NCBI RefSeq assembly: GCF_003194385.1
Contig: NZ_LAPT01000020.1
Location: forward strand, 1-64,000
Source: Pokkaliibacter plantistimulans
GTDB lineage: Bacteria; Pseudomonadota; Gammaproteobacteria; Pseudomonadales; Balneatricaceae
Length of the DNA stretch: 64,000 nucleotides
Direction of reading: 5' to 3'
Part shown: positions 56,403 through 60,657 of the stretch, piece after piece
How positions within the stretch are numbered: position 1 is the first letter of the stretch
Layout of the letters: every line of letters starts with the position of its first letter
Position numbers and translations under genes: made by a program
The notes under the pieces: model-generated
The model's input: the letters and a program-made list of their open reading frames with translations, nothing else
Told to the model about the DNA's origin: nothing
Database searches by the model: none

Positions 56403-57842
56403 TCACAAACTACTTAAAAGAGACGTTATATAAGACGAAGAACTAGTCATTTTAGAAAGAGCTATATCAAGAGCTGTGTACTTCTTGGTGAGCATCTCCT
56501 CATAGCTAGTTTGCTTTTCAGAAATAGTATTTGATTGATCAATTAACTGATCTAGCTGATCATTGTATGAAGTGGTGCGCTCTGCTAATAAACCATTTCC
56601 ACTCTGAGTATACTGTTTCAGCAATGCTTGCATCTGACCAGCGATACCGTTGTCACCGGAGAACAGTGAGGCAATATTGTCAAACTGGTCTGATAGAGCA
56701 TTGTCCAGCCTGTCTTCACCACTAGAGCCTCCATAGGTATTTGAGTCAGTAATTTCGAGATTCCCATCTGAATCCATCGATATACCTACAGAGTAAAGCG
56801 TATTGAGATTTTGATTTGCACCAGAGACTGCGCCGGCAACAATTTTTGAAAGCTGGCTTTTCAGACCACGAATCAGAGAGTCGCCGGAGAGATCTCCTCC
56901 ATCTGTAAGCTGAGTACCAGAGGAAGTGTAAGTACCGGTTTTCCCCAAATCATCTAGAACACCCATCATGGTGTTATAGTTTTTTACAAAATCTTCGATA
57001 TATCCCTGTACATCCTCTTTATCAGTACCAATCTTCAGTGTTGATGGAGAGTCAGTTTTTGTTTTTGCCAGCAAGTTTAACGTGACGTTCGAAATAACCC
57101 CTTCTAACTCATTGGAGTCACCATAAACATCGGTGCCATCAATAGTAATGTGCGACTTTTGCGCATTAGTAACGGACATTGTTGTACCTGTTCCGGTAGC
57201 AACGGTAGACACACTATCAAGGCTTGAATTGTTATTGGTTATGACCAGGTTATTACTGGTATCACCAGTAATACTGGAAGAAAACACCAATTGAGAGCCA
57301 ACAGAAGAGTCGCCAGTATTAACAATGTTAGCCGTGATACCAAAGTTGTCAGTGGCACTGTTGACAGCAGTACGTAGCTGATCCACCGTCATTCCGGCTT
57401 TAACATTGATACTGAACGTGTTGCTACCAGCAGTGAACGTTAATGCGCCAGCCGTTGATGACACAACAGAGCTACTGCTAGAGAACGTTCCATTTGCCGT
57501 AGTGGCAGTTGAGCCTTTCGCCAGCTGCAACACCTCAATGTCGTAGCTCCCCACCGACGCGGAGTTAGTGGTATCCGCAGTGAAGGCTTCGATATCATCA
57601 GTGTTTGTAATGGTTGGATTCTTGGCAGCCATCTTTGAAGCATCTGCCAACGTATCCAAGGAATCAGAGAAAGTCTTGAGCGCAGATGACAGCTTACTAA
57701 CCGCAGATAATTTTACCTGAACATCATCCTGACTAGACTTGTTAGCGCTGATCTTGGAGTCGTACTGAGCAGAGACTAGCTGAGTAACAATGGACGATAA
57801 ATCCAGTCCAGATGCCACCCCTAGTGTAGAAGACACCGCCAT
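56403..57842 (-). CDS. fliD: flagellar filament cap protein FliD
   Basis: The 479-aa protein has an N-terminal FliD domain (GVASGLDLSSIVTQLVSAQY) and a C-terminal coiled region (QTSYEEMLTKKYTALDIALS) typical of the pentameric cap. The middle is Ser/Thr/Asn-rich. FliD caps the growing filament and helps flagellin fold. The flaG stop lies 33 bases upstream, and fliS follows. Confidence 0.96.
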   Translation of the reverse strand: MAVSSTLGVASGLDLSSIVTQLVSAQYDSKISANKSSQDDVQVKLSAVSKLSSALKTFSDSLDTLADASKMAAKNPTITNTDDIEAFTADTTNSASVGSYDIEVLQLAKGSTATTANGTFSSSSSVVSSTAGALTFTAGSNTFSINVKAGMTVDQLRTAVNSATDNFGITANIVNTGDSSVGSQLVFSSSITGDTSNNLVITNNNSSLDSVSTVATGTGTTMSVTNAQKSHITIDGTDVYGDSNELEGVISNVTLNLLAKTKTDSPSTLKIGTDKEDVQGYIEDFVKNYNTMMGVLDDLGKTGTYTSSGTQLTDGGDLSGDSLIRGLKSQLSKIVAGAVSGANQNLNTLYSVGISMDSDGNLEITDSNTYGGSSGEDRLDNALSDQFDNIASLFSGDNGIAGQMQALLKQYTQSGNGLLAERTTSYNDQLDQLIDQSNTISEKQTSYEEMLTKKYTALDIALSKMTSSSSYITSLLSSL

Positions 57843-57875: not shown

Positions 57876-58280
57876 CTAAACCTTGTTATCGACCATTACT
57901 CCGGTAGCTTGACCTAAATCGTGCTGAAGCTCCTGAATTCTGGTAGCTAACTTCCTTACTTCTTCTGATGGTATCTCACGAATCACATTTCCAGTGTCCG
58001 TGTCGATAACACTGATCACCGGCTGCTTGCCATTCGTTTCATCCACACTGAAGGACAAGGAACGATTCTGCCCCTGAATGATAGAGTTGATGTCATCAAC
58101 TGATTTTGACAAGTCACTTACTGAAGCGGGCTCTGCCTGCTGCTCAGCTCCTGCATCAGCAACCTTGTCGACACTGGAGTCATTTGCGTCAGCTGCTGCT
58201 CCCACCTTGAAATCACTGCCTTGGACAGAAATTGACGAGGGGTAACTAACAGCATTGGCCTTAGATGTATCAATTTCCAT
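57876..58280 (-). CDS. flaG: FlaG flagellar protein
   Basis: From ATG 58280 (ribosome site GCAGGAGAC) the protein is 134 aa. The C-terminal FlaG domain is clear: LSFSVDETNGKQPVISVID and REIPSEEVRKLATRIQEL. FlaG affects filament length and is usually found between fliC and fliD, as here. Its N-terminal part is low-complexity. Confidence 0.92.
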   Translation of the reverse strand: MEIDTSKANAVSYPSSISVQGSDFKVGAAADANDSSVDKVADAGAEQQAEPASVSDLSKSVDDINSIIQGQNRSLSFSVDETNGKQPVISVIDTDTGNVIREIPSEEVRKLATRIQELQHDLGQATGVMVDNKV

Positions 58281-58293
58281 ACCAGTCTCCTGC

Positions 58294-58326
58294 AATAGGG
58301 CCAGCATATATCCTGCCAGCCCTATT
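58294..58326 (-). other. hairpin between the downstream flagellin gene and flaG
   Basis: A 12-bp stem with two G-U pairs (outer arms aatagggc and gccctatt) lies between the flagellin stop and the flaG ribosome site. No U-run follows on the minus strand, so it is more likely a processing or partial-termination point that separates high flagellin expression from low flaG-fliD expression. Confidence 0.6.
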
Positions 58327-58336
58327 ATCGGTTAAC

Positions 58337-59170
58337 TTACCCTAACAACGACAGCGCGATTTGCGGCAGCGAGTTGGCCTGACTCAGAATTGACGTACTA
58401 GCCTGCTGTACGATCTGATTCTGAGTCAAAGAGGCAGTCTCTGACGCAAAGTCGGTATCTTTGATTTGCGATTTGGCATCGCTCACATTTTCTACAATGT
58501 TGCTGAGGTTGCGAATGGTTGAGTCAAAGCGATTCTGAATCGCACCAAGATCCGCACGAGCACCACCGATAGCAGAGATTGCATTATCAATAGTTGCAAG
58601 TGCTGTAGATGCACCAGTAGCAGTAGAGATATCTACACTCGTCAAACTCAAGCCAGTGGCACTAAAGCCTGACAGACCATCAGGGGCAGAGATATTCACA
58701 CTGATAGTCTGGCCAGCGTTGGCACCCACCAGGAACTTAGCAGAGTAACCACCTGTCAGGATATTGGTACCACCAAACTGTGTAGTTGTGGCGATACGAC
58801 TGATCTCAGTTACCAGTGCAGTCACTTCTTTCTGAAGTGCAGCACGGTCAGAGCTCGAGTTGATACCGTTTTGAGACTGTACAGCAAGTGTACGAATACG
58901 CTGCAGGGCAGTGGTGGTTTCATCCAATGCACCTTCTGCAGTCTGTGCGACTGAAATACCGTCATTCGCGTTACGGATGGCCTGGTTCAGACCATTGATC
59001 TGCGAAGTCATACGGTCACTGATCTGCAGACCAGCAGCGTCATCTTTCGCACTGTTGATACGATAGCCTGAGGACAGGCGCTCGTAGGATGTAGCCAACG
59101 CATTAGTTGAATTGTTCAGCTGACGCTGAGCATTCAACGACGACACGTTTGTATTGACGTATAAGGACAT
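58337..59170 (-). CDS. fliC: flagellin, downstream copy
   Basis: This 277-aa short flagellin keeps the D0/D1 N-terminal ([20 protein letters not shown]) and C-terminal ([20 protein letters not shown]) helices, with only a small central segment, so D2/D3 domains are missing. Ser/Thr residues in the central SGFSATGLSLTSVDI region are likely glycosylation sites, to be confirmed. It is about nine-tenths identical to the upstream copy. It has its own sigma-28-type promoter and ribosome site AGGAGG. flaG follows after a hairpin. Confidence 0.97.
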   Translation of the reverse strand: MSLYVNTNVSSLNAQRQLNNSTNALATSYERLSSGYRINSAKDDAAGLQISDRMTSQINGLNQAIRNANDGISVAQTAEGALDETTTALQRIRTLAVQSQNGINSSSDRAALQKEVTALVTEISRIATTTQFGGTNILTGGYSAKFLVGANAGQTISVNISAPDGLSGFSATGLSLTSVDISTATGASTALATIDNAISAIGGARADLGAIQNRFDSTIRNLSNIVENVSDAKSQIKDTDFASETASLTQNQIVQQASTSILSQANSLPQIALSLLG

Positions 59171-59288
59171 AGTTAAGCCTCCTGAAGAAACGCAGCCACT
59201 CTCACACGGCTACTCGGTGACCAAGCTGGTCGTTTTCTGTACGACATTTCAAGGAAACATCGTCACATAAACTCTCACCTTACTCGGG

Positions 59289-59315
59289 TTATCGACCGGC
59301 CTTTTTAGGACTTGA
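59289..59315 (-). promoter_or_regulatory. sigma-28-type promoter of the downstream flagellin gene
   Basis: On the minus strand TCAAGTCC, an 11-base spacer and GTCGATAA match the FliA consensus (TAAAGTTT-N11-GCCGATAA) at 5 of 8 and 7 of 8 positions. It lies about 120 bases before the flagellin start, giving a leader of roughly 110 nt. Confidence 0.78.
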
Positions 59316-59504
59316 GACTTTTTTTGCCGCTAAAGGCAAAAAATTTCCTCACAGTAGGCAACTCTTATCCTCAACAACTACAGAGCGTAACTTAACAGTA
59401 GGCAACAAAGGCACTCTTAAATTTACGGCGCCATATTTCAATCAGTGCCCACGTACCAACCACTCAGACACCTGCTTGTGGCACACTTTGTGCTGCACTA
59501 TAAA

Positions 59505-59533
59505 ACGAAAAAGGCCAGAGCAATGCTCTGGCC
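59505..59533 (-). terminator. rho-independent terminator of the upstream flagellin gene
   Basis: A perfect 9-bp stem (ggccagagc / gctctggcc, 3-base loop, 59513-59533) is followed in minus-strand RNA by UUUUUCG. It ends the upstream flagellin transcript about 115 nt after the stop codon. Confidence 0.9.
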
Positions 59534-59547
59534 AATGAAGCTCAACT

Positions 59548-59601
59548 TTAGGAGAGATTGAGCGACCCACTTAACCCATCAATGAACCCAGAAACTCTCA
59601 C
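59548..59601 (-). CDS. possible 17-residue leader-type ORF in the flagellin 3'UTR
   Basis: A GTG start at 59601 follows an AGGAGG ribosome site by five bases, and 17 codons later comes a TAA at 59548, giving a peptide reading RVSGFIDGLSGSLNLS after the initiator. Its last codons lie over the anti-Shine-Dalgarno element. No family is known and the frame may be chance. The upstream ribosome site block also appears before the downstream flagellin gene. Confidence 0.25.
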   Translation of the reverse strand: MRVSGFIDGLSGSLNLS

Positions 59602-59629
59602 CAAAGCCTCCTGAAGTTCATTGATGGGT
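59574..59629. repeat. 14-bp inverted repeat in the flagellin 3'UTR
   Basis: Perfect arms acccatcaatgaac (59574-59587) and gttcattgatgggt (59616-59629) are separated by 28 bases. In minus-strand RNA the loop exposes CUUCAGGAGGCUU, which carries GGA motifs of the kind bound by CsrA/RsmA. It lies 18 bases after the flagellin stop. Confidence 0.9.
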
Positions 59630-59647
59630 ATTCTTTTGTATCCCTTA

Positions 59648-60484
59648 TTAACCTCCCAACAGAGACAACGCGATCTGCGGCAGAGAATTAGCCTGGCTGA
59701 GAATTGAGCTGCTGGCCTGCTGCACAATCTGATTCTGCGTCAGGCTGGCAGTTTCTGACGCGAAGTCTGTGTCCTTGATCTGTGAACGGGCATCGCTCAC
59801 GTTCTCAACAATGTTGGTCAGGTTACGGATGGTTGAATCAAAACGGTTCTGGATCGCACCGAGATCGGCACGCTGACCACCAATTGCAGAGATTGCAGCA
59901 TCAATGGTAGCCAAAGCGGTTGAAGCACCGTCTGCAGTGGACACATCCACACTGCTAATTCCCAGACCAGTTGCACTGAATCCATTCAAACCATCAGGAG
60001 TGGAAATGTTCACGCTAATCGTCTGACCAGCGTTGGCGCCGACCAGGAACTTGGCAGAGTAACCGCCAGTCAGGATGTTAGTACCACCAAACTGGGTAGT
60101 CACAGCAATACGACTTACTTCAGTCAGCAACGCTGTTACTTCTTTCTGCAGGGCTGCACGGTCAGCACTGGAGTTAATACCATTCTGTGACTGTACTGCC
60201 AGGGTACGGATACGTTGCAATGCGGTAGTGGTTTCATCCAGCGCACCTTCAGCGGTCTGTGCAACCGAGATACCATCGTTAGCATTACGAATTGCTTGAT
60301 TAAGACCGTTGATCTGAGAGGTCATACGATCACTGATTTGCAAACCAGCAGCATCATCTTTTGCGCTATTAATACGATAGCCAGAAGACAAACGTTCATA
60401 TGAAGTTGCCAGAGCATTGGTAGAGCTATTCAATTGACGTTGAGCATTCAATGAAGACACGTTGGTATTTACATATAAGGCCAT
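59648..60484 (-). CDS. fliC: flagellin, upstream copy
   Basis: This 278-aa flagellin is nearly the same as the downstream copy in the D0/D1 helices, with changes mostly in the central loop ([20 protein letters not shown]). It also lacks D2/D3. It is transcribed from its own sigma-28-type promoter, with ribosome site AGGAGAGATT, and ends in its own terminator, so the two flagellins can be regulated separately. Confidence 0.97.
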
Positions 60485-60488
60485 TTTA

Positions 60489-60501
60489 ATCTCTCCTAAA
60501 C
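60489..60501 (-). promoter_or_regulatory. Shine-Dalgarno region of the upstream flagellin, matched by 3'UTR complement
   Basis: Minus-strand TTTAGGAGAGATT precedes the ATG by four bases. It is perfectly complementary to bases 59559-59547 of the same transcript's 3' untranslated region. Confidence 0.85.
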
Positions 60502-60543: not shown

Positions 60544-60570
60544 ATATCGACCCAGCCATTATTTCCTTTA
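60544..60570 (-). promoter_or_regulatory. sigma-28-type promoter of the upstream flagellin gene
   Basis: On the minus strand TAAAGGAA, an 11-base spacer and GTCGATAT match the FliA consensus at 5 of 8 and 6 of 8 positions. The leader would be about 53 nt. It lies just downstream of the flgKL terminator. Confidence 0.75.
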
Positions 60571-60589: not shown

Positions 60590-60625
60590 TTACCAGAAAA
60601 ACAAAGGGCCGCGTAAGCGGCCCTT
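60590..60625 (-). terminator. rho-independent terminator after flgL
   Basis: A perfect 9-bp stem (aagggccgc / gcggccctt, loop gtaa, 60604-60625) is followed in minus-strand RNA by UGUUUUUCUGG. It ends the flgK-flgL transcript. Confidence 0.9.
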
Positions 60626-60657
60626 CAGTTCAGGTGATGACTGGGAAGTCCATGTCA

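Follow-up and report, generated by a model that had tools for sequence, protein, structure and literature searches.

The 3' end of the mRNA of flagellin 1, the first of two tandem flagellins in the 64,000-nt stretch of DNA analysed here (the window), carries, as read from its sequence, a conserved RNA element, a hairpin with a loop antisense to the ribosome-binding sites (RBSs) of flagellins. Because the hairpin, and often its match to the local flagellin genes, is kept in related marine bacteria, it probably serves as an RNA brake and keeps flagellin output in balance; in the form that we judge reasonably likely, it is an anti-RBS hairpin that would act in the manner of a small RNA (sRNA) and restrain its own flagellin, sister flagellins or both. 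To our knowledge, how bacteria with several flagellins set the amount and the order of these near-identical proteins is largely open, and a conserved antisense hairpin on abundant flagellin mRNAs would represent a direct and testable RNA mechanism for both.

The flagellin locus and its 3'UTR hairpins

On the minus strand, the two tandem flagellins are followed by flaG, by a fliD-like ORF (56403-57842), which we take to be fliD, and by fliS (Table 1). If the candidate sigma-28-like promoter of flagellin 1 is used, its leader would be about 50 nt long, and the structure predicted in this leader is weak (z 0.16). The predicted fold of the flagellin 1 3'UTR (59500-59650) contains three hairpins, namely module 1, the anti-RBS hairpin and the terminator, with an energy of -60.2 kcal/mol that none of 200 shuffles equalled (z -6.1). 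The earlier note had reported a 13-nt perfect antisense match between this 3'UTR and the RBS of its own gene, placed 13 nt before a 9-bp terminator with a U-tail. Both observations hold: the match is exact at its two sites, 13 nt (59546-59534) separate the complement from the terminator, and the U-tail in the window consists of five U followed by CG. Absent from that note was the hairpin itself, a GCUC...GAGC structure that displays the complement, in the predicted fold, in a 10-nt loop. For the duplex between the leader and the element, the predicted energy is -21.4 kcal/mol. The element was also sought 3' of flagellin 2, and none was found there.

Table 1. Features of the flagellin locus, in coordinates of the window
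Feature	Coordinates	Strand	Remarks
flaG	57876..58307	minus	adjoins flagellin 2 on its downstream side
Flagellin 2	58337..59170	minus	277 aa; 94% identity to flagellin 1
Flagellin 2 ribosome-binding site	59175..59187	minus	loop complementarity 5 nt; 13-nt identity to module 1
Candidate sigma-28-like promoter, flagellin 2	59289..59315	minus	TCAAGTCC-N11-GTCGATAA, from sequence
Intrinsic terminator	59508..59533	minus	9-bp stem 59533-59513 and U-tail
Anti-RBS hairpin	59540..59563	minus	GCUCAAU-CUCUCCUAAA-GUUGAGC; predicted fold and alignment with relatives
13-nt perfect complement of flagellin 1 RBS	59547..59559	minus	AATCTCTCCTAAA, complementary to TTTAGGAGAGATT; mostly within hairpin loop
Module 1	59574..59629	minus	long hairpin past the stop; AGGAGG and GTGAGAG apically
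13-nt sense copy of flagellin 2 RBS	59604..59616	minus	CTTCAGGAGGCTT, loop region of module 1
Flagellin 1	59648..60484	minus	278 aa; domains Flagellin_N and Flagellin_C
Flagellin 1 ribosome-binding site (putative target)	60488..60500	minus	TTTAGGAGAGATT, covers the Shine-Dalgarno
Candidate sigma-28-like promoter, flagellin 1	60544..60570	minus	TAAAGGAA-N11-GTCGATAT, from sequence

A complement that arose by chance in the window has one point in its favour: with up to two mismatches the 13-mer is not rare, since about one site is expected per 64 kb (two are present, 1.08 expected, and 28 of 100 shuffles hold at least two). What is unusual is its exactness and the linking of these two places, not the rarity of the 13-mer within two mismatches. 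The window holds 56 ORFs of at least 100 codons whose overlap with any longer ORF stays below one half; when the leader (-30 to -1) of each was compared with the 150 nt past its stop, flagellin 1 had the longest complement (13 nt; runner-up 9 nt), and none of 3000 dinucleotide shuffles of its 3'UTR reached 13 nt (maximum 11). The hairpin moreover belongs to a conserved family of such elements, and G018, another genome of the window's family, keeps it with GGAGAGAT/ATCTCTCC. Against all this, a chance complement is extremely unlikely.

Throughout the window's own genome, the 12-mer TTAGGAGAGATT has two exact occurrences, the target and, in complementary form, the element. Within one mismatch there are 18 places, these two exact ones included, and 3 of the other 16 lie ahead of an ATG. 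The repeated ones among these 18 were considered as targets and rejected, being the ends of an IS-like repeat (presumably IS110-like) and not leaders; such ends, with TTAGGAGAGATG, lie near contig edges in L171, L175, L181 and L184, and their likeness to the target is apparently fortuitous. One of the three places before an ATG, around position 1500 of L173, belongs to what we read as the rplL leader (TTAGGAAAGATTCAAAATG), which has one-mismatch complementarity to the loop. In E. coli, the fliC-derived sRNA FliX also touches ribosomal protein mRNAs (PMC10578931). Two further observations concern the locus. A 17-codon ORF with a Shine-Dalgarno (SD) sequence lies in the flagellin 1 3'UTR (59548-59601, minus strand), with its stop codon inside the complement; by eye, no consistent start codon is seen in other module-1 loops. 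In Rfam 15, no family reached its gathering score between 58000 and 61000 at E<=1: the single match, a weak one to suhB/mmgR (25.3 bits; gathering 41), falls not at the element but at 60591-60657 of the minus strand, at a hairpin after a flgL-like gene, and 13 of the other loci compared gave two tRNAs and nothing else.

In the case of module 1, the loop region repeats the RBS of flagellin 2 in sense orientation, and this copy may act as a decoy that CsrA or some other factor binds. Comparable hairpins, largely different in their stems, are present in G018, Marinomonas and Alteromonadaceae; among the window, G018 and Marinomonas these stems diverge largely yet stay paired, and the sense identity to an RBS amounts to 13 nt in the window, 11 nt in Marinomonas and 9 nt in G018. 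Among the 13 usable hosts of 45, several of them closely related, RBS mimicry by module 1 averages 9.46 nt in the own locus and 7.85 nt across loci, 6 nt being the motif by which the sites were found (0 of 10000 permutations). AGGAGG/T sites in flagellin 3' regions have a module-1-like stem in 36 of 97 cases, compared with 17.5% of shuffles. Module 1 also offers the antisense loop a local partner, as CUUCAGGAG could pair with CUCCUAAAG at 8 of 9 positions in the window, and the two loops might thus form a pseudoknot to which the leader is irrelevant. Across 75 elements, however, local complementarity averages 5.03 nt within the own 3'UTR and 5.33 nt across genes, with 5000 of 5000 permutations reaching the observed value; it is no higher in the own 3'UTR than across genes, therefore there is no locus-specific signal of local pairing, and we consider the pseudoknot very improbable.

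Distribution of the hairpin among relatives

A survey of named genomes, taking the best 80 of 553 matches, yielded 74 loci. A GCUC..GAGC hairpin enclosing CUCC or CUCU is present in at least 78 copies at 53 loci, counting the window and G018. A covariance model, R1, built from 23 chosen sequences, identified at E<=1e-6 79 places in the Alteromonas-like family of G463, which we infer to be Alteromonadaceae. These places, all scoring at least 40 bits, are spread over 55 of 196 genomes and 18 of 52 genera, and the other 141 genomes have no strong match; the survey set and the 196-genome set share genomes and are therefore not independent. Among those listed, all R1 matches of at least 40 bits lie downstream of a same-strand flagellin. 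Within 600 nt past a flagellin stop we find 70 of the 79 places, and two further ones follow flagellin ORFs at 104 and 193 nt. The seven remaining copies (L231, L242, L243, L249, L254, L256 and L259) are 714-1239 nt past the previous flagellin, with none directly before them: in six, no frame of at least 120 codons ends in the preceding 700 nt, and the seventh follows a frame of 143 codons that does not resemble flagellin. Judging from this arrangement, the seven are possible stand-alone RNAs. By eye, in L254 (G515) and L256 (G557) three tandem copies of a module of about 75 nt (GCCGAC..GAGAGTGTAG..GGTTGAGAGGCCAG..AGTCGG) precede the anti-RBS hairpin; leaders that belong to a different class of flagellin contain GAGAGTGTAG as well.

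The window's own family, where its genus is represented by the window's genome alone, was covered by 116 genomes; 46 of them have a match at E<=0.01 and only the window (46.9 bits) and G018 (52.4 bits) exceed 32.6 bits; 114 genomes are thus without a strong match, and G018 is the one of 115 others that carries the element. When 369 genomes were drawn evenly from the class, 16 gave a match at E<=0.001; the matches above 40 bits are confined to the flagellins of G463 and the window, and one match of 37.9 bits lies off flagellins. Since 101 of these 369 genomes carry a flagellin match at E<=1e-50 and few show strong R1 matches, the element is rare outside the group of G463 and the window. Two of the weak matches below 40 bits, L133 and L134, were inspected and rejected as copies because they are not at flagellins. 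Among distant flagellins (36 loci, L006-L012 and L102-L130), where many entries lack a terminator by the rule used, 10 have one, and their own-leader matches reach just 3-6 nt.

Fit of the loop to flagellin leaders

The survey's best 80 of 553 matches comprise 206 flagellin entries, duplicates included, of which 88 are followed by a terminator at a distance of some 40 nt or more from the stop and 84 are distinct; an AGGAG/CTCCT-anchored set leaves out 28 of those 84 for want of the anchor. For the 84, the longest match of the 48-nt stretch ahead of the terminator averages 7.76 nt with the leader (-30 to -1) of the same gene, 6.84 nt with the leaders of other genes and 4.86 nt after mono-shuffling (0 of 20000 permutations). 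The own match is 6 nt or shorter in 23 of them; when it is at least 7 nt long, it begins 11-16 nt ahead of the start codon, on the SD, in 51 of 61 cases. Set against a paralog's 3' end, the own one fits the leader better in 32 instances, equally in 10 and worse in 16. For 72 distinct elements from 49 loci, the best leader in the own locus matches over 9.61 nt and that of other loci over 8.99 nt (0 of 20000 locus permutations), with controls at 5.24 nt (shuffled loops) and 4.43 nt (region -60 to -31; maximum 7).

In the test that also measured local complementarity, the own leader matches over 8.56 nt and other genes' leaders over 7.68 nt (0 of 5000 permutations). A comparison of nearest pairs drew on 75 entries found with a different terminator rule. 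When elements were swapped within 37 disjoint nearest pairs, the own combination was better in 9, worse in 2 and tied in 26 (p 0.065), and by duplex energy better in 16 and worse in 8 (p 0.15). The leaders themselves differ: among those with AGGAG, duplicates kept, AGGAGG occurs in 0 of 76 whose gene has its own element and in 31 of 101 whose gene has none; going by these sequences, part of the element-less flagellins have a plain SD that is not matched by the loop.

These figures bear on the idea that the loop is kept for some other reason, such as protein binding or terminator context, and that its matches to SDs merely follow from the SDs being alike and conserved. Loop and stem are indeed near-invariant across many species, the GCUC/GAGC stem being invariant in the model alignment and hence without covariation, and the 6.84-nt matches between genes are long as well. 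The excess in the permutation tests is locus-specific, however, which argues against this idea, and so do the divergent 3' ends of L087 and L074 (Rheinheimera), L078 (Catenovulum), the first gene of L066 (Idiomarina) and L019 and L022 (Marinomonas), which still match their own leader over 7-11 nt, unlike the second gene of L066 (5 nt) and L080 (4 nt).

The earlier note had suggested looking for conservation of both pairing partners with compensatory changes: conservation is strong, and compensatory changes exist, independent ones being few. The position test, in which gene classes A to D are labels of this analysis, covered the 43 of 60 'B' (downstream) elements whose upstream-neighbour leader holds TTAGGAG, at eight flanking positions and with G-U counted. 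At one position, the B loops and this leader form T-A in 18 cases and A-T in 18 (38 of 43 paired, 20.8 expected), and at another C-G in 31 and A-T in 7 (38 of 43 paired, 27.3 expected), neither value being reached in 2000 shuffles; the other six flanking positions of the B loops show no excess of pairing. Both switching positions had been spotted by eye before the test and were then reused on the tree. With the own leader, one position gives A-T in 33 and T-A in 6 (39 of 55 paired, 32.0 expected; 2 of 2000 shuffles). For the 'A' (first-gene) loops the excess is small: two positions show one with the next leader (29 and 10 of 2000 shuffles), and a single position does so with the next-but-one leader (46 of 2000). 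The tree, which comprises 46 clusters, has 3-4 leader-side and 4-5 loop-side changes, and supported branches retain 2-3 independent leader changes per position. In these the loop followed, on average, in 1.5 of 2 and 1.5 of 3 cases, and in 0.7 of 3 where the partner was the own leader; it never changed opposite to the leader. The sequences being related and independent changes few, no tree test can attain significance. In L042, L047 and L057, loop and own leader are mismatched at one position, A against A. The scarcity of independent co-changes speaks for a loop kept for another reason and the two-sided switches at two positions speak against it; overall, we hold that explanation to be rather unlikely.

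A second alternative accepts the pairing and makes it purely cis: the 3'UTR would fold onto the SD of its own transcript, as proposed for icaR, RNase III would cleave the duplex, and there would be no free sRNA. The 13-nt own match in the window and the excess of the own leader over other genes' leaders (8.56 and 7.68 nt) agree with it, as do two clades that carry a swapped own pair, T-A, at one position, although on the tree the loop seldom followed its own leader. Three findings stand against it. (i) Sister leaders often fit better than the own one: in L032, L034 and L082, the final or penultimate element matches the upstream sister leader over 14 nt and the own over 11, 12 and 9 nt, and for the first gene of L037 a sister leader matches over 15 nt and the own over 7. 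(ii) The seven copies described above have no flagellin ORF directly before them. (iii) Transcription and translation are coupled, and an RBS is usable before the 3' end exists, as discussed for icaR (PMC3868564). We find a purely cis action unlikely; the matches to sister genes, together with the copies that no flagellin ORF adjoins, lead us to favour action in trans over fold-back within one molecule. The same evidence narrows the earlier note's view of a self-regulating flagellin. The own leader is the best fit in the window and in G018 (13 and 8 nt), and to this extent the view stands; in Alteromonadaceae clusters a sister leader is often the better one, so that self-regulation alone, given also the 7 of 79 copies, is too narrow.

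The anti-RBS hairpin that we favour would then work as follows. The 3' end, either free or still on its mRNA, would pair in trans with a flagellin RBS; pairing would block 30S binding and lower translation, and the level of flagellin mRNA would thereby limit flagellin translation. In the window, the target would be flagellin 1 itself, which would give negative feedback and leave flagellin 2 untouched. In the multi-flagellin clusters of Alteromonadaceae, where a sister frequently makes the better target, the element may set the ratio of flagellins or their order in the filament. Release of a 3' fragment, use of a chaperone (Hfq or ProQ) and repression itself would all be part of such a scheme; the window's own genome has an Hfq gene and two ProQ-family genes. 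A more elaborate version, possible and yet in our opinion doubtful, is a circuit made of RNA only, in which a 3' end shows both the antisense of one flagellin's RBS (own or sister) and, in module 1, a sense decoy of another's; one mRNA pool would tune the translation of the next flagellin and so set filament order or ratio, and in some species the element would be a stand-alone RNA.

Comparison with known systems

The anti-RBS hairpin shares features with several described regulators. In Staphylococcus aureus, the 3'UTR motif UCCCCUG of icaR pairs with the SD region of its own mRNA and hinders translation initiation, with cleavage by RNase III (PMC3868564). Like icaR, the element has in its 3'UTR a motif whose complement is the SD region of its own mRNA, here over 13 nt; the icaR motif, in contrast, resides in the long 3'UTR of a repressor gene, whereas here the loop lies before flagellin terminators, in many genera and with matches to sisters. 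The UCCCC(UG) motif of icaR is not found in the window loop, which reads CUCUCCUAAA.

An intrinsic terminator at the 3' end is a defining trait of sRNAs of the OppZ/CarZ type, and the element ends in one too. OppZ and CarZ of Vibrio cholerae are 3'UTR-derived sRNAs which pair with their own transcript and inhibit its translation in a feedback (PMC7398697; reviewed in PMC9438474); for them processing by RNase E and, for OppZ, dependence on Hfq have been demonstrated, and OppZ acts within an operon with Rho (PMC7398697, PMC9438474). The element resembles them in having a 3'UTR complementary, over 13 nt, to the translation start of its own transcript; it differs in that its candidate targets include sister genes. 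The main text of that review mentions neither flagellin nor fliC.

FliX derives from the fliC 3'UTR in E. coli; its overexpression lowers fliC mRNA, and its pairing sites are found within the fliC coding sequence and in mRNAs of the S10 operon (PMC10578931). The element is like FliX in deriving from a flagellin 3'UTR, a likeness of position alone, and unlike it in that the match here is at the RBS and that of FliX within the coding sequence. Flagellin mRNA is also controlled post-transcriptionally by CsrA, in Campylobacter (PMC4894983) and Pseudoalteromonas (PMC11882849). Module 1 carries GGA in a loop and is a candidate CsrA site; such control is protein-based, however, and leaves the antisense loop unexplained.

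The earlier note had thought feedback on flagellin translation by an element of this kind to be new. A fliC 3'UTR sRNA (FliX) and pairing of a 3'UTR with its own SD (icaR) are already known, and any claim of novelty needs that qualification; the literature searched, with most subscription papers outside it, holds no account of an anti-RBS flagellin element. If our reading is true, it would extend anti-RBS control from the 3'UTR across many genera and wire it between paralogs, where the precedents described here concern single genes or operons.
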